Assembly (NCBI RefSeq): GCF_024298845.1
Contig: NZ_CP101160.1
Span: 248,001 to 312,000 of the forward strand
DNA from: Natronosalvus amylolyticus
Lineage (GTDB): Archaea; Halobacteriota; Halobacteria; Halobacteriales; Natrialbaceae
Length of the DNA stretch: 64,000 nucleotides
Direction: 5' to 3'
In this document: piece by piece, positions 6,532 through 60,526 of the stretch
How the letters are laid out: each line of letters starts with the position of its first letter
Position numbering within the stretch: the first letter of the stretch is position 1
Program-made: the position numbers and the translations under genes
The notes under the pieces: model-generated
What the model saw: the letters and a program-made list of their open reading frames with translations, nothing else
The model's database searches: none
What the model was told of the DNA's origin: nothing

Positions 6532-8955
6532 ATGGTTGGTACGTTTCGAAAGCTGGTGCCGAAAGCGATTCGGCGTAGCTACGCGCTCAAATTTGGTATC
6601 GTACTGTTGGTAATTGGCCTCGCAATCGGGCTCGTCGGTATCGCGGGAACGGCACAAATCGAAAGCGAGGTTACCGAGAACGCGAACGAGGAGGCGGCGA
6701 CAGGCGCTCAGCAGGAAGCCGAAAAACTCGATGCCTGGATCGAACGCAACGAGTGGACGACGCGGATGATCTCTCAGTCGGCCGTCGTCCAAGACCGCGA
6801 CAACGAAGCGATAGATCGATATCTACAAAACTGGCACGATGAGCTTCCGGAAGGGACACATCACGTCCATTACGTGGATCTCAATCGGAACGAAGTGACG
6901 GCGAGTACGAACGAAGAAACCGTTGGGACCGAACTCGCTGCTCTCAACGTTCCGGAGGGGGGAGACTGGATACGATCTGATCTCGACGCCGACCAGGTAC
7001 ACCTTTCGGACAGCTACATCGACACGACTGGTGAATCCGACGAACCGGTACTGGCGTTCGTGCAACTCGTCGGTGACCAACCCGATCGCGTCATCATCTA
7101 CACGGCCACCCTCTCTAGTTACGCGAATCAATTCGAGAGCGCAGGGACCGACACACAGCTCACGTTCGCCGTCGACGATAGCGGCCGAGTGGTGATGGAT
7201 GACGTCGGTTTCGACGAATCGGACGCTTTCCACGCGGCGTACGAACCTGCGTCGACGCTCGAGGCTGCCAACACCGGTGATCGGGGATCGAGTCAACTCG
7301 ATGCCGACCCATCCGGCGCACTCGCTTTGCCGGGATATTCGTATCCCTCATCGCCATACGTTGTCGGCTACGCACAATCGGAACACACTGACTGGGTAGT
7401 GGTAGTGCATACACCGACAGCCGAGGCCTACGGCTTCGTAGAGGCAGTCACCCAGTACGGCCTATATGCGACGGGGTTCGGCGTGTTCGTCATCGCCATC
7501 GGTGGTATGGTCCTCGGTCGGAACACGGCAACGGCAATCGATCGACTGACCGCGAAGGCAAAACAGATGGAAGATGGAGATCTCGACGTGGAGTTCGACA
7601 GCCCTCGAGTCGACAACATCGGGCAGTTGTACGATGGGTTCGACTCGATGCAATCTCAGCTTCGCACCCAGATTCAGGTTGCCGAAAACGCTCGTGATGA
7701 GGCAGAAATCGCACGAGAGCAAACCGAGTCGATGAACCGACACCTCGAGGCAAAAGCAGACGAGTACAGTGAGGTGATGCAAGCGTGTGCTGATGGTGAT
7801 CTCACGGCTCGAATGGACGTCGACAGCGAGAACGAAGCGATGTGCGCGATTGCAACCGAGTTCAACGCGATGGTGAGCGACCTCGAGTCGACGACGGCGG
7901 CGGTCAAGACCTTCGCCGAAGAGGTTGCGACGGCCAGCGAGCAGGTGACGGCCTCGAGCGAAGAGGTTCGCTCGGCGAGCGAGCAAGTCACCGAATCAGT
8001 GCAAGAGATATCCGACGGGGCGGACCGCCAGAACGACCGATTGCAGTCGGTTACCGCGGAGATGAGTAGTCTCTCGACGACGACCGAACAGATCGCAGCC
8101 TCCTCGAATCAGGTGGCCGATATCGCTGAGCGAACGGCGGATGCAGGAGAACGCGGGCGAGAAGCCGCACAGGTTGCTATCGACGGGATGAACGAAATCG
8201 AAGACGAGTCGGCAGACGCCGTCGACGCCATCGAAGCCCTCGAGGCGGAGATGGCACAGATCGACGAGCTCACGGAGTTCATCACCCAGGTCGCAGAACA
8301 AACCAATATGCTCGCGCTCAACGCCAATATCGAGGCTTCGAGGTCGGATGCCGATGATGCGGGCTTTTCGGTCGTTGCCAGTGAGGTCAAAGAACTCGCT
8401 GCGGAGACCAAAGACGCAGCCGAAGACATCGAGGCGCGACTCGAGCGTATTCACGAGCAGACCGAACACACGGCGTCCGAAGTTCAGCTAACCAGCCAGC
8501 GCGTGACCGAGCACACCGATTCGGTTCGCCAGGCTGCAGACGCGCTCGAGGAAATCGCCGGCTATGCGGCGGAGACGAACACCGGCGTGCAGGAAATCTC
8601 GGCAGCGAGCCAACAGCAAGCCGCCTCGACGCAGGAGGTCGTCGCGATGGTCGAGGAGGTGGCAACGATTTCTCAAGAAACCACCGCGGAAAGCGAAAAC
8701 GTTGCGGCGGCCGCCGAAGAACAAACGACTGCCCTGACGGAAGTTTCGGGGAGTGCGAGTGAACTGACGACGCAGGCGAGCGAACTCTCGAGTGCACTCG
8801 ATCGGTTCGAGACGGATACCGACTTCGAGGGGGAGAGCCAACGTTCGAACGATGAGTTGGCCCCGAAAGCACCCAGTGACGAGTCAGACACGGACGAGGT
8901 TTTCGAATTTGCGGAACCAACGAACGGCGATTCGACCGAATCAGACACCGTCTGA
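6532..8955 (+). CDS. Methyl-accepting chemotaxis (Htr-type) transducer
   Basis: 807 residues from ATG 6532; an in-frame GTG at 6526 would add two residues. Layout: TM1 about 17-40, an extracellular sensor domain about 45-300, TM2 about 308-330, a HAMP linker with the ATAIDRLTAKAKQ helix and the MEDGDLDVEF segment, a second HAMP-like stretch, then the cytoplasmic coiled-coil signalling domain with hairpin tip EQTNMLALNANIEASR near 589-604. Gln/Glu-rich helices beside it should carry the methylation sites. The C-terminal tail is acidic. Transducers of this kind pass ligand sensing to CheA/CheW. Its place between the ureohydrolase and glutamate dehydrogenase genes suggests sensing of an amino acid or peptide signal, but no ligand motif can be read. 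Confidence 0.93.
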   Translation: MVGTFRKLVPKAIRRSYALKFGIVLLVIGLAIGLVGIAGTAQIESEVTENANEEAATGAQQEAEKLDAWIERNEWTTRMISQSAVVQDRDNEAIDRYLQNWHDELPEGTHHVHYVDLNRNEVTASTNEETVGTELAALNVPEGGDWIRSDLDADQVHLSDSYIDTTGESDEPVLAFVQLVGDQPDRVIIYTATLSSYANQFESAGTDTQLTFAVDDSGRVVMDDVGFDESDAFHAAYEPASTLEAANTGDRGSSQLDADPSGALALPGYSYPSSPYVVGYAQSEHTDWVVVVHTPTAEAYGFVEAVTQYGLYATGFGVFVIAIGGMVLGRNTATAIDRLTAKAKQMEDGDLDVEFDSPRVDNIGQLYDGFDSMQSQLRTQIQVAENARDEAEIAREQTESMNRHLEAKADEYSEVMQACADGDLTARMDVDSENEAMCAIATEFNAMVSDLESTTAAVKTFAEEVATASEQVTASSEEVRSASEQVTESVQEISDGADRQNDRLQSVTAEMSSLSTTTEQIAASSNQVADIAERTADAGERGREAAQVAIDGMNEIEDESADAVDAIEALEAEMAQIDELTEFITQVAEQTNMLALNANIEASRSDADDAGFSVVASEVKELAAETKDAAEDIEARLERIHEQTEHTASEVQLTSQRVTEHTDSVRQAADALEEIAGYAAETNTGVQEISAASQQQAASTQEVVAMVEEVATISQETTAESENVAAAAEEQTTALTEVSGSASELTTQASELSSALDRFETDTDFEGESQRSNDELAPKAPSDESDTDEVFEFAEPTNGDSTESDTV

Positions 8956-9312
8956 TAGGGATTATCGTCGGCGTTCATCGGTACCGACGAAGAACCGAGG
9001 CACAGCGTCGACAGCCGTCCTTCGAAACCGCCGGCTGGCTACGATAATCCCCATGAGCCGGTGTTGATAACAGGTGACCTGAACCACCCGTCCGCTGCGG
9101 GTAGTTCCTACAAGCCTTCACTCGCTTCGCTTACGCTGGGAACGAGTGAGGATGGTTCCAGAAGGTGGTTCGTTCTTGCGGATACGGTTCTCCGTGCCAC
9201 CATTGCACGGACCACTAGCATCTTACTCCTTGCACGTCCACACTGACGTGATGAGACGATCGAATGTAAAGTCGCGAAAACGGAGCGCCCCCCGATACAT
9301 GGGTGTGCGAGC
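8956..9312. other. Intergenic spacer with a 94-bp inverted-repeat structure
   Basis: About 357 bases. A 10-bp inverted repeat (GGGATTATCG at 8958-8967, CGATAATCCC at 9042-9051) brackets 74 bases directly after the transducer stop and could form a 3' hairpin or be a degraded foldback element. The rest (9060-9312) has short open frames on both strands but nothing I recognise as a gene. Confidence 0.45.
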
Positions 9313-13311: not shown

Positions 13312-13395
13312 TATAGTAGCCAATGAAAGTCATTGCACATCCTTTCGTAAGAGGATGTCGCGTTAGGTGTGTAAATCGTTTCACTGGCTACTATA
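13312..13395. repeat. 84-bp foldback repeat (MITE-like), family 1 copy A
   Basis: The ends TATAGTAGCCAATGAAA and TTTCACTGGCTACTATA are inverted repeats matching at 16 of 17 positions; the interior is also an imperfect palindrome. It matches the copy at 60031-60114 at about 72 of 84 positions without gaps. A TA at both borders is compatible with TA target duplication, as in IS630/Tc1-type mobilised MITEs (inference). Confidence 0.75.
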
Positions 13396-13818: not shown

Positions 13819-13902
13819 AATAGTAGCCAGTGAAAGTCATTGCACATCCTATCGCAAGACGGCGTCGTGATAGGTGTGTGAATCGTTTCACTGGCCACTC
13901 TA
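13819..13902. repeat. 84-bp foldback repeat, family 1 copy B
   Basis: Same layout as copy A: left end AATAGTAGCCAGTGAAAG, right end TTTCACTGGCCACTCTA, and shared interior including AGTCATTGCACATCCTATCG and AATCGTTTCA. It abuts a further degenerate copy on its right side. Confidence 0.72.
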
Positions 13903-27182: not shown

Positions 27183-28255
27183 GTTTGAACGACACATTCA
27201 CTTCGGAAACCGAACTGCAAGACGTATCTGATCCGATTCTCGAGATCCGAGACGCCGAAGTCGTCTTTGAGATGGACCGCGGCGTCTCCCGCGTCCTCGA
27301 CAACGTAAACCTCACAGTCGAGCGCGGCGAGATCCTCGGGATCGTCGGTGAGAGTGGCAGCGGCAAGTCGATGCTCGCCTCGGCAATTCTCGATGCCGTC
27401 GTCGATCCGGGCATCCTCTCTGGATCGGTCACATACTATCCCGAGAACGGCGAGCCCATCGATGTCCTCTCTCTCAGGGACGAGGAACTCAGAAAGCTGC
27501 GCTGGGAAAGCATCTCGATGGTCTTCCAGGGCGCAATGACCTCGTTCAACCCCACGATGTCCGTCCGTGGGCACTTCGAGGAGACCTTAGATGCCCACGA
27601 CTTCGACATCGAGGAAGGCATGGAGCGAGGACACCAGATCCTCTCGGATCTGTATCTCGAATCCGAGCGCGTGATGGACTCGTACCCACACGAACTCTCC
27701 GGCGGAATGCGCCAGCGCGCACTGATCGCGCTGTCGGTTCTGCTCGAGCCCGACGTGCTCGTAATGGACGAGCCGACCGCTGCGCTGGATCTGCTGATGC
27801 AGCGATCGATTCTCGCCCTGCTCGAGTCGCTCAAAGAAAAATACGATCTCACGATGGTGTTCATCACGCACGATCTGCCGCTGGTCGCCGAGCTCTCGGA
27901 CCGAATGGCGGTGATGTACGCCTTCGAACTGATCGAGCAAGGACCGACCAACGAGATACTGCAGAATGCGGGTCACCCGTACACGCGGTCGCTGCTCAAC
28001 GCGACGCCGAACCTCGATGCGCCGCTCTCTGAGATGCGCCCTATCGAAGGGTCGGCACCTGACCCAGTGAACGTGCCGAAGGGCTGTTCATACCACCCGC
28101 GGTGTTCGGTAGCGAATAATCGGTGCGTTGAGGCAGATCCCAAGTACCAGCAGATAACAGAAGATCACGTGGCCGCATGCTTCCACTGTGACGACGCGGT
28201 GGAGGCGATCCCGTTGACACACGAGCAGGCGGTCGTCCAGGAGGATGAGCCATGA
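27179..28255 (+). CDS. Opp/Dpp-type ABC importer ATPase, D subunit
   Basis: 358 residues. Complete ABC ATPase motifs: Walker A GESGSGKS (about 58-65), Q-loop MVFQGAMTSFNP, signature LSGGMRQRALIAL, Walker B VLVMDEPTAALD and the H-loop ITHD. The C-terminal oligopeptide-transporter domain includes GCSYHPRCSVANNRC, the Cys cluster known in this subfamily to hold an iron-sulfur cluster in some members. Works with the F subunit as heterodimer. Start and stop overlap neighbours by ATGA on both sides. Confidence 0.93.
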   Translation: MSLNDTFTSETELQDVSDPILEIRDAEVVFEMDRGVSRVLDNVNLTVERGEILGIVGESGSGKSMLASAILDAVVDPGILSGSVTYYPENGEPIDVLSLRDEELRKLRWESISMVFQGAMTSFNPTMSVRGHFEETLDAHDFDIEEGMERGHQILSDLYLESERVMDSYPHELSGGMRQRALIALSVLLEPDVLVMDEPTAALDLLMQRSILALLESLKEKYDLTMVFITHDLPLVAELSDRMAVMYAFELIEQGPTNEILQNAGHPYTRSLLNATPNLDAPLSEMRPIEGSAPDPVNVPKGCSYHPRCSVANNRCVEADPKYQQITEDHVAACFHCDDAVEAIPLTHEQAVVQEDEP

Positions 28256-29346
28256 ATAGCAAAGAGCCACTCCTCAGTATGGAGGACGTCGAGGTTCACT
28301 TCGAGGAGAGCACTGGACTGTTCGACTTCCGGAGCGAACCCGACGTGGTTCGCGCTGTCGACGGGGTCTCGCTCGATGTCTTCGAGCAGGACGTCGTCGC
28401 ACTGGTCGGCGAATCCGGCTGTGGAAAGACGACACTCGGCAAGACCGCTATCGGGCTCCAGCGCCCCACAGGCGGCAGCGTCTCTTACCGCGGCCAGGAC
28501 ATCTGGAACGCACGGGACGGCCGGGGTGACGTTGAAATACCCTTCGGCGACATCCGGCGATCCCTGCAGATCATCCATCAGGACCCCGGATCCTCACTGA
28601 ATCCGAATCGTCGGGTGATGAAGATCCTCGAGGTACCACTGAAGCGCTGGCAGAGCCAGATGAGCGCCGGCGACCGCCGTCGAGAGGTACTGTCGATGCT
28701 CGAGGAGGTGGGCATGTCACCACCGGAAGACTACGCCGGACGGTATCCCCACCAGCTTTCCGGCGGGGAGAAACAACGTGTCGCGCTCGTGCGTGCGCTG
28801 TTGATGGATCCCGATCTGATCCTCGCCGACGAGGCGATCAGCGCGCTTGACGTCTCGCTACGCGTCGAGATGATGGATCTGATGCTCGATCTCCAGAAGC
28901 GCTACGACACTTCGTTCCTGTTCATCTCTCACGACCTCTCGAACGCCCGTTATTTCGCCGCCCACGCCGGGGGGCGAATCGGGGTGATGTATCTCGGCCA
29001 GCTCGTCGAGATCGGTCCTGCCGAGCAGATAATCAACGATCCTCAGCACCCCTACACGAAGGTCTTGCGGTGGGCGACACCGGACCTAAATCCCGGAAGC
29101 GGTAGCGGGAAACCGCCTGTTCGCAAGATCGACATTCCGGATCCGAAGAACCCGCCGTCTGGATGTCGGTTCCACACGCGGTGTCCGGAGGCCCGTGAAA
29201 CCTGTACGAAGGAGATCCCACCCGAGTACACTCACGATGAGCTGCACACCGTTCAGTGCTTCCGAGAGGACGACACCCACGAGTACTGGTCGAGTCAACA
29301 GCTCGAGGACACCGACGCCGAACTGTTCAAAGCAGCCGACGACTAG
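28252..29346 (+). CDS. Opp/Dpp-type ABC importer ATPase, F subunit
   Basis: 364 residues. Walker A GESGCGKT, Q-loop IIHQDPGSSLNPN, signature LSGGEKQRVALVRALL, Walker B LILADEAISALD (Glu to Ala-containing variant DEAIS is normal for DppF), H-loop ISHD. The C-terminal domain carries GCRFHTRCPEARETC, again a four-Cys cluster as in its partner. Last gene of the operon. A family 2 foldback repeat begins exactly at its stop codon. Confidence 0.93.
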   Translation: MNSKEPLLSMEDVEVHFEESTGLFDFRSEPDVVRAVDGVSLDVFEQDVVALVGESGCGKTTLGKTAIGLQRPTGGSVSYRGQDIWNARDGRGDVEIPFGDIRRSLQIIHQDPGSSLNPNRRVMKILEVPLKRWQSQMSAGDRRREVLSMLEEVGMSPPEDYAGRYPHQLSGGEKQRVALVRALLMDPDLILADEAISALDVSLRVEMMDLMLDLQKRYDTSFLFISHDLSNARYFAAHAGGRIGVMYLGQLVEIGPAEQIINDPQHPYTKVLRWATPDLNPGSGSGKPPVRKIDIPDPKNPPSGCRFHTRCPEARETCTKEIPPEYTHDELHTVQCFREDDTHEYWSSQQLEDTDAELFKAADD

Positions 29347-29420
29347 TACCCTTCCAAACTCGACGTGTGAGCCGACCCCATCGGTTCGGTTCTCCTGTGC
29401 AGGGTTGGGAAGTAAACAGC
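29343..29420. repeat. Family 2 foldback repeat (CTAGTACCC type), shortened copy
   Basis: Starts CTAGTACCCTTCCAAAC, overlapping the stop codon of the ATPase gene, and ends GGGTTGGGAAGTAAAC. Both ends match the 88-bp copies at 38928-39015 and 51365-51452, but the interior is about ten bases shorter and more diverged. It may act as an operon 3' hairpin. Confidence 0.55.
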
Positions 29421-36468: not shown

Positions 36469-36490
36469 GCCAGCGAGTAAGTTGTCATAC

Positions 36491-38857
36491 ATGAGTTCCA
36501 TCTCTTCATCACTCGTCCCGTCGTTTATCAAGCGGCGATACGCTGCGAAGTTCGTCGTATCGATACTCTTCGTGTTGATTGCCATCGGCCTCGTCGGCGG
36601 GGTCGGCTACGTAGACGTAAACGAGACTCTCGAGCAGGACGTCGAGGACGAACTCCACTCGATGTCCGTGATGCAGGCAGATTCACTCGACGAGTGGACC
36701 AGTAAAATGTCCTCTCAAGCTCATTTATTGAGCGAGCGCCAGGAGATCCAACAGGGAGACACACCACAGATCGAGGCCCAGTTCGCCTACGAACGTCCTG
36801 CCCGACTCGACGATGCCGCGTCGCTCTACGTCGTTGAGATCGATTCGGGTGAAGTGATCGCTAGCTCCACCGAGGGAGATCGTAACCCCGAGGGAACGCA
36901 TATCGATGACATTGACGACCCGTGGGCAAACGAGAGCGTTTTCCAGGAAGCCCACGGCGACAACGTGTGGATGTCACCCGGAACGTACCGATCGAGCGGT
37001 AACCCCGACCGTGCCGTCGTTGCATTCGTTACCCAGGCAGGGAACGACCGCGTGGTCGTTTTCGAGGGATCGATCGACGTCCGAATCGGCCAACTACACC
37101 AGGGCGGTGAGTCTCAGTTCACCGAGATCATCGACACGAACGGAGAGTACGTCCTGCGCGCCGAGGACGACGAGCTGGACGCCACCGAAGGGGGTGCCAT
37201 CGACGACGACCGTCAGCTCGAAGCTATCCAAAGCGCCGCTGCGGATCGCGAGGTTCAGTTCACACGACACGACGGTATGCTCCGGGCGTACACCCCAGTC
37301 GGCGCCGGCGACCGAACCGGTGATTGGGTCGCGGTGACGAATGTGCCCGCCAGCGATGCCTTCGAAGTTCGTGACACTGCCGGACTGAGCGTCCTGTCGA
37401 TCATCGCGACCGGTTTCCTCACGCTCGGCATCATGGGCATTGTCCTCGGCCGCCAGACGGTGACGCCGATCCGTCGTCTCCAGACCAAGGCCCGGTCGAT
37501 GGAGGCGGGTGACCTCGAGGTCGACCTCGAGAGCGGTCGAACCGACGAGATCGGCCGACTCTACGGAGCCTTCGACAGCATGCGCATTTCCTTACGGGAG
37601 CAGATCGACGATGCGCGCAAGGCCCGCGACGAAGCAGATGCCGAGCGCCAGCGCATCCAGCATATCAACCAGGAACTCGAGAAAACTGCGGATGACTACA
37701 GCATCGTCATGCGACGCGCCGCCGAGGGTGATCTCACTGCTCGCATGGATGCCAGTACGAGAAACGAGGCCATGGTCGAGATTGCCGACGAATTCAACGC
37801 GATGCTCGCCCAGATCGAGCAGACTGTCGAGCAAGTTAACGCCTTTGCCACTGCGGTCGCCACCGCATCCGAACAGGTCACCGCCTCTTCCGAGGAGGTT
37901 CGGACGGCTTCCGAGCAGGTCGCCGAATCTGTCCAAGAGATTTCCGGAGGTGCCAAGCGTCAGCACGAAGCCTTGGGTAAGGTCGACTCAGAGATGTCGA
38001 ATCTATCTACAACTACCCAACAAATTGCTGCCTCCTCGAACGAGGTCGCCGATATCGCCGAACGAACGGCCGAAACCGGTCGCAAGGGCCGACAGGCCGC
38101 ACAGGACGCCATCCAGAGTATGCGAGAGACCGAAACTGAGGCCGGATCAGCTCTCGAGGAGATGCATGCCCTCGAAGAAGAGGTCGCCCAGATCGACGAA
38201 CTTGTCGAACAAATCCAGGAAATTGCTGGCCAGACCAACATGCTCGCACTCAACGCAAACATCGAGGCCTCTCGCTCCGCTTCGAACGAGGACGGCGGCT
38301 TCGGCGTCGTCGCTCAGGAAGTCAAGGAACTGTCCACCGACGCCAAACAGGCCGCCGACAAAATCGAACAACGGCTCGGATCGATTCGTGAGCAGACTGA
38401 CGACTCGGCCACAGAGGTCGAAGCTACTAGTCAGCGCCTCCAAAACGCCAGCAGCCGAGTAAAGGAGGCCGTCGAGGCGCTAGAGGTGATAGCTCAGTAC
38501 GCAGCCGAAACCAACTCCGGCATCCAGGAAATTTCCGCTGCCACCGAACAGCAGGCCGCCTCCACGCAGGAGGTCGTCGCGATGGTCGACGAGGCTGCCT
38601 CCGTCTCCGAGGAGACCACTGCCGAAGCCGAGAGCGTCGCCTCCGCTGCCGAAGAACAGACCGCCGCACTCACCGAAGTGTCGGGTTCTGCCTCCGATCT
38701 CTCCGGCCAAGCGGCACATCTCTCCGAGGTGCTCGACGAATTCGACACTGACGCCGACAGTGAGAGCAGCATGGAAACCGGTACGTTCGACTTTGTTGAC
38801 CTGGACTCCGCCCCCAAAGCCGAGGACGGTTACGCTAACGACGTGCATCCAGACTAG
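36491..38857 (+). CDS. Methyl-accepting chemotaxis (Htr-type) transducer, second
   Basis: 788 residues from ATG 36491 (a TTG at 36482 is in frame but unlikely). TM1 about 15-38, an extracellular sensor domain about 40-290, TM2 about 296-320, HAMP with TVTPIRRLQTKARSMEAGDLE split over its two helices, and the cytoplasmic signalling coiled coil with hairpin tip GQTNMLALNANIEASR near 580-595. It is similar to the transducer at 6.5 kb in the cytoplasmic part but differs in the sensor domain. Lying after the beta-glucan locus, it may detect a breakdown product; this is position-based inference only. Confidence 0.93.
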   Translation: MSSISSSLVPSFIKRRYAAKFVVSILFVLIAIGLVGGVGYVDVNETLEQDVEDELHSMSVMQADSLDEWTSKMSSQAHLLSERQEIQQGDTPQIEAQFAYERPARLDDAASLYVVEIDSGEVIASSTEGDRNPEGTHIDDIDDPWANESVFQEAHGDNVWMSPGTYRSSGNPDRAVVAFVTQAGNDRVVVFEGSIDVRIGQLHQGGESQFTEIIDTNGEYVLRAEDDELDATEGGAIDDDRQLEAIQSAAADREVQFTRHDGMLRAYTPVGAGDRTGDWVAVTNVPASDAFEVRDTAGLSVLSIIATGFLTLGIMGIVLGRQTVTPIRRLQTKARSMEAGDLEVDLESGRTDEIGRLYGAFDSMRISLREQIDDARKARDEADAERQRIQHINQELEKTADDYSIVMRRAAEGDLTARMDASTRNEAMVEIADEFNAMLAQIEQTVEQVNAFATAVATASEQVTASSEEVRTASEQVAESVQEISGGAKRQHEALGKVDSEMSNLSTTTQQIAASSNEVADIAERTAETGRKGRQAAQDAIQSMRETETEAGSALEEMHALEEEVAQIDELVEQIQEIAGQTNMLALNANIEASRSASNEDGGFGVVAQEVKELSTDAKQAADKIEQRLGSIREQTDDSATEVEATSQRLQNASSRVKEAVEALEVIAQYAAETNSGIQEISAATEQQAASTQEVVAMVDEAASVSEETTAEAESVASAAEEQTAALTEVSGSASDLSGQAAHLSEVLDEFDTDADSESSMETGTFDFVDLDSAPKAEDGYANDVHPD

Positions 38858-39232
38858 TGGTTCGTCACGGCTGCATGTGTGAGCCGGACGATGAGGTTAG
38901 CTCCACACATCGACGCTTGACGGAGTCCTAGTGGCTTCCCAAACCTAAACTGGTGGGTGAAATCAGGCGGTGCGATTCGATTTCACCCATGAGTCGACGT
39001 TTGGGAGGGTACTAGACCAGAGTGTCCAACCCACACGAGGAGTACGCCCCTCGATCCCTGGATCATGATCTCAGACGAGTCGATTTCGAAATTTCGCTTC
39101 GGACCTTCATTCCGATTCGGAGCACGGCTCTCTACTGCGTCGACGCTATCTGCAGATTTCATGGCAGAGTGCCTCGAGGTCGACTCCGGGCATTCTCCTT
39201 TACGCTTGTAAAACACGGGACATCGGCCGTCC
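38858..39232. other. Intergenic spacer containing a family 2 foldback repeat
   Basis: About 375 bases. It holds the 88-bp repeat at 38928-39015; the remainder (39016-39232) has only short frames without acidic protein character. No gene is recognised. Confidence 0.5.
38928..39015. repeat. 88-bp foldback repeat, family 2 copy (CTAG ends)
   Basis: The element begins CTAGTGGCTTCCCAAAC and ends GTTTGGGAGGGTACTAG, inverted repeats matching at 14 of 17 positions. An inner perfect 11-bp pair (TGGGTGAAATC at 38954-38964, GATTTCACCCA at 38979-38989) strengthens the hairpin. Reverse-complemented, it aligns without gaps to 51365-51452 (about 61 of 88 identical). Confidence 0.7.
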
Positions 39233-50482: not shown

Positions 50483-51265
50483 TCACAGCGAAGTCGAGTT
50501 GATCTCGATAACGTTGACGCCTCGCATGATCATGTCCGGCAGTTCGCGCTGGAGTCTGTCTTCGTCCATTCGACTCGAGGGACCGATGATACTCAATGCA
50601 CCCAAAACGCTTCCGTGTTGATTCTTAATCGGTGCTCCAACCCCAACCAATCCGTGTATCGTCTCCTGATTGTTGAACGCTATACCCCGCTTTCTGACCT
50701 CCTCGAGTTGCTCGAGGAGTGCCTGCTTCTGTGTGATCGTGTGTTCAGTAATTTCCGTGAGACCTCGAGTATCGATAATCTCCGCGACGCGTTCGTCTGC
50801 GAGGTGGGCAAGAATTGCTTTCCCCACCGCAGTATGGTGGAGTTCGCTGCGATGACCGACGTACAGGGGGGTCTGGACGGCCTGTTCACCATAGGCCACG
50901 TAGAGGCAAACACCCATTCCGTGTTCTTCGACGGTGAATAGGGCCATCTCGCCGCTCTTTTCGGCGAGTTTGTCTACTTCCGTTCGAGCCAGTTCCAGGA
51001 TCGGAATGCGGGATTTCGCGTGGTGGGCAACGTCGATGAACCGTAATCCCAGGTGATATCTGTCGTTTGCGTCTTTGTACACGTAATCGTTCTCCTCGAG
51101 CGTTGCCAGGTGGTTGTAGACCGTCCCTTTCGTTACCCCTATTTCCTTCGAAATCTCCGTGACTCCAGCGTCACCGTGTGCTCGTAACGCATCGAGAATC
51201 TCGAGCGTTGTCTGCACCGCCTGGATCCGCTTTTTTCCATTTGACGGATCGATGGACGAGGACAT
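50483..51265 (-). CDS. IclR-family transcriptional regulator
   Basis: 260 residues. The N-terminal winged helix (about 14-75) shows LEILDALRAHGDAG, TEISKEIGVTKGTVYNHL and NDYVYKDANDRYHLG. The C-terminal effector domain follows (RTEVDKLAEKSGEMALFTVEEHG, GHRSELHHTAVGKAILAHL, and GAPIKNQHGSVLGALSIIGP). IclR proteins control catabolic genes in response to small organic acids or sugars. A TATA-like CATTTAAGT (minus strand, about 51288-51296) lies about 27 bases upstream of its ATG. It sits in the middle of the catabolic island and is the best candidate for its controller. Confidence 0.92.
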   Translation of the reverse strand: MSSSIDPSNGKKRIQAVQTTLEILDALRAHGDAGVTEISKEIGVTKGTVYNHLATLEENDYVYKDANDRYHLGLRFIDVAHHAKSRIPILELARTEVDKLAEKSGEMALFTVEEHGMGVCLYVAYGEQAVQTPLYVGHRSELHHTAVGKAILAHLADERVAEIIDTRGLTEITEHTITQKQALLEQLEEVRKRGIAFNNQETIHGLVGVGAPIKNQHGSVLGALSIIGPSSRMDEDRLQRELPDMIMRGVNVIEINSTSL

Positions 51266-51364: not shown

Positions 51365-51452
51365 CTACTACCCGCCCAATCGTCGGCAGTTGGATAAAAC
51401 CGGACACCCGCAATCGGTTTCACGCACGAGTACAGGTTTGGGAAGCCACGAA
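51365..51452. repeat. 88-bp foldback repeat, family 2 copy
   Basis: CTACTACCCGCCCAATCGTC at the left and AGGTTTGGGAAGCCAC at the right match the reverse complement of the 38928-39015 copy, without gaps and with about 61 of 88 identities. It fills most of the spacer between the IclR start and the sulfatase stop. Confidence 0.62.
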
Positions 51453-51498: not shown

Positions 51499-53052
51499 TC
51501 ACCGCTCTCGAGGAAACGCATCCATCGTGCGGGTAAGTGCCTCGATTTGTGTGTCCGACCGACCGTGTTCCTGATACAGTTTCAGCAGTTCGTCCGGGTT
51601 CGCGTACAGATACGGACCTTGCGAGGCAGTGCGCGCAAGTGGGTCCATTCCTCGTGCCTCGACCGGTTGCTGGCTGTGCCATTCATCGGTAAGGTGTGTG
51701 ACGATCCATCGGTCGAGGAGTGCCCGCATTTCGGCCGTTTTCTCGGGCCTCGATTCGACGAGATTCTTCGTCTGATTGGGGTCGTCATCGAGGTTGTGTA
51801 ACAGTTCCAGCCCGTCGTTCGGTAGTCCTGGATCGTTGTAGAGACCTGGATAGGAGAAAACTCCCGGATGGATGAGACGAACGTACATCCACTCGTCCTG
51901 GTAGACGGCACGACCGTACGTGTAGATGCCGTGGCCGGCGACGATAACGTCGCGACCGGAGAACTCGTCACCCTCGAGTGCGGGGGTAAACGGTTCGGCA
52001 TCCCAGTCTGTCGGGATATCGATTCCAGCGAGTTCACAGACGGTAGGGAGTAGATCGAACTGGTATACCTGAGCGTTCGTTCCGGTACCGGCCGCAGCGT
52101 CGGTCACACCGGGCCATGAGACGATCATCGGTACCTGCTGGCAAGCGGGGTGTGGAAACGCATGTTCGGCGTAAATACCGTGTTCACCGAAGGCTTCACC
52201 GTGGTCGGCGGTGATGACGACGGCCGTCTCTTCTCGAACGCCGTGGCGCTCGAGACAGGCGAGCAGTTTTTCGACCTCAGCATCGACGCGTCGGATACTG
52301 GCGTCGTAGCCGTCGACGAACTGGTCAACGTCCGCGGTGCTGTCCACCGAATCGGGCATTTTGTATTCGTAGAACTCCTCCCAACCCGGTCTATACTGCG
52401 ATGCACTCGGCCACAGATCCGCCGTTCTGATGCCGGTCATCTCCTGTTGGCCGTCGATAGTTTCCTGGTCGGGCCATGCTGGTGTGGGACCTGATTCGCG
52501 CACCGGGTCGACGAAGTTCTCGATCCCGAGATACGGATGGTGAACGTCCCAGTAGTTGACGTGCAAGAGCCAATCATCGTCTGTAGCGTGCTGGTCGAGC
52601 CACGATTTGGCTACTGGTGTGACCTCCGAACAGTCTTCGACCGCGGGACCGCCCGCAGTTGCTGTCGGCATGATCGACTCCTGAAAATTGGCACTGAAGT
52701 GATAAGCGAGATGGCGCTGTGAGAACTGGCTCACTGATGCCGTATAGATGCCGTTTTCAGCGAGGTGACGAAACGCTGGCACTCGATTGGCGTCGGGGTC
52801 GTGACCCTCGCCCGGTTCGTTGTAGCGCTGTCCTTCGCCGTGGTGAGTGACGACGCCAGTGTTGATCCCCATCCGACAGGTTGCGAGCGCCGTTCGGCTC
52901 GGCAGACACGGTGTATCGGACGCGTAACATCGGTCGAACCGCATCCCCTCTTCGGCGAGGGTATCGATCGTCGGGGACGTGTCGCGTTCGTAGCCGTAAC
53001 AGCCCAGGTGGTCCGGTCGTAGCGAATCGATATCGAGAACGAGTATCCTCAT
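51499..53052 (-). CDS. Type I sulfatase (formylglycine-dependent)
   Basis: 517 residues, no signal peptide, hence cytosolic. The formylglycine motif CLPSR is at 49-53 with the following TALATCR helix (CxPSR core intact). Metal site elements include DIDSLRPDHLGCYG near the start and TADHGEAFGEHG later. Family members remove sulfate from sugars, choline or aryl esters. Its start overlaps the stop of the Gfo/Idh/MocA gene by ATGA, so the two are translated together. Being intracellular, it should act on a small imported sulfated compound rather than a polysaccharide. It needs a formylglycine-generating enzyme, not seen in this window. Confidence 0.92.
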   Translation of the reverse strand: MRILVLDIDSLRPDHLGCYGYERDTSPTIDTLAEEGMRFDRCYASDTPCLPSRTALATCRMGINTGVVTHHGEGQRYNEPGEGHDPDANRVPAFRHLAENGIYTASVSQFSQRHLAYHFSANFQESIMPTATAGGPAVEDCSEVTPVAKSWLDQHATDDDWLLHVNYWDVHHPYLGIENFVDPVRESGPTPAWPDQETIDGQQEMTGIRTADLWPSASQYRPGWEEFYEYKMPDSVDSTADVDQFVDGYDASIRRVDAEVEKLLACLERHGVREETAVVITADHGEAFGEHGIYAEHAFPHPACQQVPMIVSWPGVTDAAAGTGTNAQVYQFDLLPTVCELAGIDIPTDWDAEPFTPALEGDEFSGRDVIVAGHGIYTYGRAVYQDEWMYVRLIHPGVFSYPGLYNDPGLPNDGLELLHNLDDDPNQTKNLVESRPEKTAEMRALLDRWIVTHLTDEWHSQQPVEARGMDPLARTASQGPYLYANPDELLKLYQEHGRSDTQIEALTRTMDAFPRER

Positions 53053-59916: not shown

Positions 59917-60526
59917 CGACGCCCTTTTGCCTTCGTTCGAAGCGCTCGAGTTGACGTATAACGTTCGACGAGTGCCTCGACAGTGAGTGATTGCATCCAC
60001 AAATGTGGCCAACTGGCCTCGAGTACAACCTATAGTAGCAATTGAAAGTCATTGCACATTCTCTCGCAAGATGGCATCGCGATAAGTGTGTAAATCGTTT
60101 CAATGGCTACTATAGTTCGCCGACAACTGCTCGGTTTGTGATCGTGTGTCCCAACCAATCGAAGCCTATGCCGTACAAGTGCCCAGCGATTTGAGCGGTA
60201 TCGACTCGAGGAGTAATCTGGTGAGGAAATACTCCGCATATAGAGCGATCGCGGATACGTTCTTGCAACAGAAAGAAAGGAGCATCGGTGTCTCATCGAG
60301 ACAATCAGTAGCAGTAATTTCATCGGGTTTGTTATCGTCTCTTACCGGTCGGCGACGAACCGGAGTGATCGCTAACCGGTAAGCCGTTACAAAAATCCCT
60401 CTGAAGGGCAATCTATCGTGACTCGATACTATCCGTTGGCACTCGCTCAGTCAGACATCATCGGGTCAAGCGAGTCATTGTAAATAAAAACCGGAGGGAC
60501 TTTCGCGTGCGTTCGGATTTTTAGCT
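59917..60526. other. Intergenic spacer with a family 1 foldback repeat
   Basis: About 610 bases. It contains the repeat copy at 60031-60114. Short frames on both strands downstream of the repeat (60120-60420) have no acidic protein signature. The permease gene's 3' end is at 60527; no ATPase gene follows it here. Confidence 0.45.
60031..60114. repeat. 84-bp foldback repeat, family 1 copy D
   Basis: Ends TATAGTAGCAATTGAAA and TTTCAATGGCTACTATA are inverted repeats; gap-free match to copy A at about 72 of 84 positions. TA at both borders. Confidence 0.75.

Follow-up and report, generated by a model that had tools for sequence, protein, structure and literature searches.

An 82-bp mobile foldback element of haloarchaea that duplicates TA or TNA targets and rebuilds stop codons

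Background

REP sequences are palindromes that carry a tag at one end and are not known to be flanked by a target duplication. Their length is given as 20-40 bp in the cited part of PMC3733652. The closest counterparts in print of the element analysed here are the small mobile repeats (SMR-A and SMR-B) of Haloquadratum walsbyi which, in the portions of their description drawn on here (PMC3119063), have no transposase, inverted ends unlike those of any transposon and no target duplication, and whose mobilisation the authors call enigmatic.

Here a foldback repeat is analysed that lies within a 64-kb stretch of haloarchaeal DNA (G000:C5:248001-312000, from a genome of 4.22 Mb); this whole stretch is called the window, and its genome the host genome. 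The repeat had been predicted from the sequence of the window as an 88-bp family of three copies, possibly MITEs or terminator-like palindromes comparable to REP sequences.

Results

Window copies and the extent of the mobile unit

The repeat at 38928-39015, its partner at 51365-51452 and the shortened copy at 29343 are all present as originally predicted. The length of 88 bp needs correcting: the mobile unit measures 82 bp, the outer CTA and TAG being target sequence. To the three predicted copies must be added a fourth, at 38857-38928, which adjoins the named copy directly upstream and had been overlooked. The features are as follows.

38855-38857, plus strand: TAG stop of the chemotaxis-receptor gene 36482-38857 (ORF list; MCPsignal and HAMP domains), its G being the first base of the next feature
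38857-38928, plus strand: related 72-bp foldback with another outer arm, TTCGTCA...TGACGGA (covariance model, E = 3.8e-4; sequence)
38929-38930, no strand: TA spacer common to the two tandem elements (sequence)
38931-39012, plus strand: 82-bp element GTGGC...GGTAC, flanked by CTA and TAG (covariance model, 100.2 bits, E = 2.2e-29; about 40 genome places by BLAST)
39013-39015, no strand: TAG 3' of the 82-bp element, forming with CTA at 38928-38930 a CTAG-type target (sequence; rule from flank statistics and empty sites)
29344-29346, plus strand: TAG stop of the oligopeptide ABC transporter ATPase gene 28252-29346 (ORF list; ABC_tran and oligo_HPY domains)
29346-29416, minus strand: 71-bp copy, right end towards the upstream gene (covariance model, 37.5 bits, E = 1.8e-9)
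51368-51449, minus strand: diverged 82-bp copy (covariance model, 76.3 bits, E = 9e-22; this copy is in the model's alignment)

The shortened copy thus lies, as predicted, at the stop of the importer gene: it is a 71-bp form whose first base completes the TAG. The 51.4-kb copy lies between a sulfatase gene (51499-53052, minus strand) and an IclR-type regulator gene (50483-51265, minus strand), 49 bp after the sulfatase stop, and its flanks no longer match. Folding better than that of shuffled sequence is seen for the 38.9-kb copy alone, with z of -5.6 on one strand and -5.1 on the other; the other two fold no better than shuffles (z of +0.9/+0.9 for the 51.4-kb copy and -0.3/-0.5 for the 29.3-kb copy).

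Random expectation, which the prediction had named as a possible explanation of the matches, does not account for them. The pattern CTAGTACCCTCCCAAAC, with at most 3 mismatches, has four matches in the window (29343, 38928, 38999-39015 in reverse, and 51365) where 0.06 are expected, and four were reached in 0 of 100 shuffles. BLAST against the whole genome aligns the 51365 copy with the named one at 74% identity over 85 bases (E = 1.4e-5). A covariance model finds all four window members (E of 2e-29 for 38931-39012), although the 38.9-kb and 51.4-kb copies are among the 29 host-genome copies from which the model was built, so that their own match to it is by construction.

Family size and spread

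The genome-wide search and gene-end statistics that had been proposed as a check bear the family out. With the named copy as query, BLAST finds the element at about 40 places in the genome (identity up to 98%); a 21-base right-end pattern allowing up to 3 mismatches has 59 genome matches, and its reversed control none; and the covariance model finds 92 non-redundant places, down to E of about 1.5e-4, after removal of opposite-strand duplicates and weaker rows. Of these 92 copies, 47 measure 82 bp, 67 fall within 80-83 bp and 10 are of the 71-bp form.

At E of 0.001 or below, the element is found in 25 of 61 genomes, nearly all from one family, probably the Natrialbaceae: 8 of 8 in the genus, 16 of 29 in the rest of the family and 1 of 24 in the rest of the order. 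Of 125 genomes of the family, 29 contain a left-end pattern, whose control matched once over all of them. One genome (G019) holds 199 right ends (control 0). Another (G020) holds 14 copies, 12 of which are identical across all 82 bp, and this identity argues for recent spread there. The plasmid collection gave no match with the window's copy as query and one, in Halobiforma lacisalsi NZ_CP019286, with a relative's copy; among viral contigs, three stretches carry one exact 20-base pattern match, all in the same unrelated context, and the other element pattern had no match. One Planctomycetota contig also came up in the search for the element.

Insertion sites and target duplication

Insertion with target duplication is proved by two empty sites in a sister species (genome G004, matching Natronosalvus hydrolyticus). 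At the end of a PAN-like gene the host genome reads CC-TAA-[82 bp]-TAA-GCGAAA and the sister species CC-TAA-GCGAAA, a 3-bp TAA duplication at the stop; at the end of a glutamine-synthetase-like gene the host genome reads TTC-TA-[71 bp]-TA-GGGCG and the sister species TTC-TA-GGGCG, a 2-bp TA duplication, within CTAG and again at the stop (both gene names were assigned from the encoded C-termini). The other relatives compared, too, are without the element at both gene ends, most being too diverged to align as empty sites. A joined-flank search among the retrieved loci returned mostly array matches.

The flanks of the remaining copies tell the same story statistically. Among the 51 host copies of at least 60 bits, the same 3 bp (mostly TGA or TCA) stand on both sides in 14, where 2.3 are expected by re-pairing; 17 share 2 bp alone (11.0 expected, a high figure because TA is so common); and 20 share neither. 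For the 40 weaker copies the corresponding numbers are 3, 8 and 29, so that, by the rule used, 49 of the 91 host copies with flanks have no matching flanks, many of these copies being old. In G020 matching 3-bp flanks occur in 4 of 14 copies (0.4 expected); the pairs there are TTA/TTA twice (in the same surroundings and hence not independent), TAA/TAA, TGA/TGA, TTA/TAA (site TTAA) and CTA/TAG nine times (site CTAG). The occurrence of 3-bp and 2-bp duplications in one family looks as if the T and the A of two Y^T half-sites were separated by a single base or by none. CTAG itself is scarce in the 64-kb window (38 occurrences, against 416 of GATC), in line with the CTAG avoidance noted for Haloquadratum in the cited part of PMC3119063.

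Insertion at stop codons

Genes ending in C-TAG, C-TAA-G or C-TGA-G offer CTAG, CTAAG and CTGAG as targets. Because G comes first at either end of the element, TA plus G restores a TAG stop; a TAA or TGA stop survives the insertion as well, since it is this very triplet that is duplicated. The position near gene 3' ends that had been claimed for the family proves to be sharper than claimed, insertion being often in the stop codon itself: the stop of a predicted gene adjoins an element end in 47 of 169 copies (16 of 51 host copies of at least 60 bits and 7 of 40 below, with G020 contributing 6 of 14 and G019 18 of 64). The genes here come from a simple codon-usage score trained on the window; arrays and duplicated surroundings make some of the copies dependent on one another, and a sister subfamily is included in the G019 part. 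Every other single stop distance has few counts, except 84 in G019 (7 counts), which is one element further out. The C-termini encoded at these sites look like those of ordinary genes, and the element occurs there in both orientations relative to the gene.

When copies of the 169 without a recognisable duplication are dropped, 115 remain, 32 of them at a gene stop and none inside a gene; random positions of the window, scored in the same way, fall within a gene in 341 of 1000 cases. CTAG has 38 sites in the window, of which 36 were scored: 5 coincide with gene stops, 7 lie inside genes and 24 elsewhere. Target choice together with loss of harmful insertions would therefore suffice, and there is no need to assume that the element actively seeks out stop codons. 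A search of the open-access literature, judged by title or opening of the abstract, brought up no prokaryotic MITE described as rebuilding stop codons, and stop-codon targets are not mentioned in the excerpts used of a review of prokaryotic MITEs (PMC10969869) and of a Halobacterium paper (PMC10264941).

Anatomy, arrays and loop flips

From GTGGC at its left end the unit passes through an outer arm, CCTGAAC and an inner arm to the loop, and from there through the second inner arm, GTCGACG and the second outer arm to GGTAC at its right end. Its two ends are related yet distinct (GTGGC versus GTACC, reversed), and outside them stands TA, or TNA repeated on both sides. Of 18 predicted pairs, 5 show both-sided changes in some copies. 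Copies of the host genome adjoin one another with spacers of 2, 3 and 3 bp; the 2-bp spacing seen at 38929-38930 recurs at C1:1088661/1088745 and in arrays of G019, which have a period of 84 bp. Copies also adjoin other foldback families, and two host copies (L016, L021) have the right end of another such family.

In some copies the loop is reversed relative to the ends. One G020 copy (L107) has such a loop, and its left arm is a perfect match of its right arm, unlike those of its 13 sister copies; in the host copies at C1:642159 and C5:195472 the common loop is found in reverse; and two further loci (L220, L221) appear by eye reversed relative to L219. Template switching across the hairpin would explain these flips, and would also explain the covarying arms without selection on RNA. 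The flipped loops also caution against taking the matched arms of palindromes of this kind as sufficient evidence of selection for RNA structure. Helical phasing was considered for the 11-bp step between the 82-bp and 71-bp forms and set aside, most 71-bp copies sharing one loop and looking like one subfamily.

Several neighbouring structures were also observed. Another foldback, with 43-nt arms (TGATAGGGATTATCG...CGATAATCCC), lies at 8945-9064 of the window; relatives of it adjoin copies of the 82-bp family at three loci (L004, L015 and L174), with TCA shared at L004. At eight loci (L170 to L173 and L175 to L178) a right end of about 21 bp (GTCGACGTTTGGGAGGGTACT) stands alone, lacking any left half; the one at L177 is found in N. 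hydrolyticus as well (L090). In G020, two copies of a 1.53-kb repeat unit (loci L100 and L103) each contain the 82-bp element, identical in both and with identical flanks, so that this element was carried along by a larger mobile element.

Search for a helper transposase

IS630 transposition duplicates TA at CTAG, and IS30 is known both for duplications of 2-3 bp and for inserting beside ends. Among the sampled matches to PF01609, PF13358 and PF00665, no parent transposon with GTGGC/GTACC ends was found. For PF01609 (6 genomes, 116 hits, 30 loci scanned for inverted repeats) there were several IS end types, none like GTGGC/GTACC. PF13358 gave 45 hits in 6 genomes; the loci scanned, drawn from a 20-locus selection and from further places in G019, G020 and G004, have three IS630 end types, one faintly similar to the family's ends, as judged by pairwise comparison for a 379-aa group of G019 and G020 and by end-pattern scan only for the rest. 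PF00665 had no hit in 5 genomes, which makes IS30 and IS3 types unlikely in those five.

A half-element profile run over all retrieved loci found solitary or degraded ends only and no convincing pair 0.4-3.5 kb apart; each of the five end pairs it returned has at least one end below 7 bits. Two candidates were rejected: the solitary 21-bp right ends as possible parents, which stand beside unrelated sequence except for one full-length copy (L174), and the region between two inverted G020 copies as a carrier of a transposase, where a gene for a Zip-type transporter and an unassigned ORF lie instead.

The window's first foldback family (13312-13395 and 60030-60115, with arms also at 13822-13899) reads CTATAGTAGCC...GGCTACTATAG. 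Since its ends are similar by eye to those of a 1.06-kb IS630-type element of G020 (TAGTAGGCGTTAGAAGTAATTGC), it is probably an IS630 MITE.

Discussion

The reading favoured here, with a probability of roughly 0.8, is that of a non-autonomous, MITE-like mobile element of 82 bp (also in a 71-bp form) that is moved in trans and inserts at Y^TA^R and Y^TNA^R sites. A transposase supplied in trans, presumably of DDE type, would cut the element at GTGGC...GGTAC. Insertion at a symmetric Y^TA^R site (CTAG, TTAA) would yield a 2-bp TA duplication, and insertion at Y^TNA^R (CTAAG, CTGAG and similar) a 3-bp TNA duplication. Stop codons are among such sites, the G at both ends rebuilding TAG, and TAA or TGA being the duplicated triplet. 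Insertions at gene ends would leave the protein unchanged and hence persist, while those within genes would be lost, presumably by purifying selection. Each insertion would leave a target at both ends, at which further copies and other foldback families could land to form arrays with 2-3 bp spacers. The arms can pair, and occasional template switching across the hairpin may flip the loop and keep the arms matched. Several points count against this reading: 2-bp and 3-bp duplications in one family are unusual for a single transposase, the sampled transposase families yielded no autonomous relative with these ends, 49 of the 91 host copies have no matching flanks by the rule used (though many are old), the proved empty sites number two, and the genes were called by a simple codon score.

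The gene-end position and the paired arms, with both-sided changes in 5 of the 18 pairs, could also point to a device of the transcript--a terminator or RNA-stabilising hairpin kept by selection at gene 3' ends. This is unlikely, and the terminator-like role suggested at the outset is not upheld: there is no terminator-like site in 38700-39200 (sought as a hairpin followed by a T run, a bacterial-type consensus in an archaeal host), two of the three window copies fold no better than chance, either end of the element faces the gene, and Rfam has no match in 28000-52000; moreover, the position follows from the target sequence and the matched arms are explained by the loop flips. More improbable still is a single-strand palindrome of IS200/IS605, REP or PATE type moved by a Y1 transposase, even though the hairpin form would suit it and such palindromes are, in the excerpted account of PMC3119063, common in haloarchaea: IS605-type (Y1) elements are there said to leave no target duplication, whereas here the duplicated triplet varies yet matches on both sides and the TAA and TA empty sites are contrary to it. 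IS200/IS605-derived PATEs have neither terminal inverted repeats nor target duplication; the element has both. Length, a palindrome with asymmetric inner motifs, position after stops and tandem arrays would all befit attC-like recombination sites of an integron-like gene-capture system, a reading that can be given next to no credence, as copies are scattered singly over the chromosome, the target is duplicated, and the arrays are built of nothing but the palindromes, which have no genes in between.

A narrower form of the favoured explanation would make the helper an IS630 (Tc1/mariner-like) transposase and the family an ordinary IS630-derived MITE, 3-bp duplications being a tolerated variant. 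The TA duplication at CTAG fits IS630 behaviour; the ends of the 1.06-kb IS630-type G020 element (TAGTAGGCGTTAGAAG / TAGTAACCGTTAGAAT) resemble those of the family (TAGTGGCGTTCCAAG / TAGTACCGTTCCAAG), with the same GGC/ACC difference; and a resemblance to those IS630 ends is seen in the other foldback family of the window too. Yet the likeness was drawn by eye and needs an offset and a one-base gap, two further types of IS630 end, ATACTCAAGG and TAATGATCAAG, are unlike those of the family, and the clear TNA duplications, including TAA at an empty site, are not IS630-like; an IS630 helper is thus a tentative proposal. Equally speculative is a broader one, in which a foldback lineage would have spread through a haloarchaeal family as an 82-bp unit, moved by an undescribed kind of transposase that tolerates a stagger of either 2 or 3 bp at Y^T(N)A^R, with stop codons as safe harbours that its ends rebuild and with arms kept matched by hairpin template switching.

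The 82-bp element of the favoured reading offers a clean case in which end sequence and target choice jointly render insertion into a stop codon silent, which would explain the pile-up of short palindromes at gene ends in these archaea. It also supplies empty sites, targets and near-identical copies with which to seek the helper of a haloarchaeal small mobile repeat.

Comparison with known systems

The proposed likeness to REP sequences goes no further than one trait, that of a repeated extragenic palindrome, since the element, at 82 bp and with target duplications, is unlike a REP of 20-40 bp (PMC3733652, as excerpted). The probably IS630-related foldbacks of the window (13312-13395 and 60030-60115) are similar in length (about 80 bp), in their CTAG/TA sites and in occurring in the same arrays, but differ in their ends and inner motifs.

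The suggestion of a MITE holds insofar as this is a transposase-less mobile foldback: its ends are inverted, its arms are paired, its 82 bp are too short for a protein, and its target duplication is established by two empty sites and the flank statistics. Going by the parts of PMC10969869 used, it shares with MITEs its short, non-coding form, inverted ends, target duplication and presumed movement in trans; it differs from them in that no parent transposon was found, in its two duplication lengths, in a length of 82 bp that is constant across genera, and in ends that rebuild stop codons.

The small mobile repeats of Haloquadratum, as characterised in the cited portions of PMC3119063, resemble the family in being haloarchaeal, about 80-110 bp long (HqIRS41, 80 bp), non-coding and present in many copies, in having inverted ends and in inserting into other mobile elements. 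The ends of SMRs are unlike those of known transposons and their mobilisation is described as enigmatic; for the family, the sampled transposase families gave neither matching ends nor a helper, which is consistent with this. The family is set apart from them, on that description, by its duplication of TA or TNA, where SMRs have none, and by its targets, which are frequently stop codons, while some SMRs prefer PATE and IS605 palindromes. It is, in short, a real, mobile and well-delimited element whose ends are elegantly fitted to its target.
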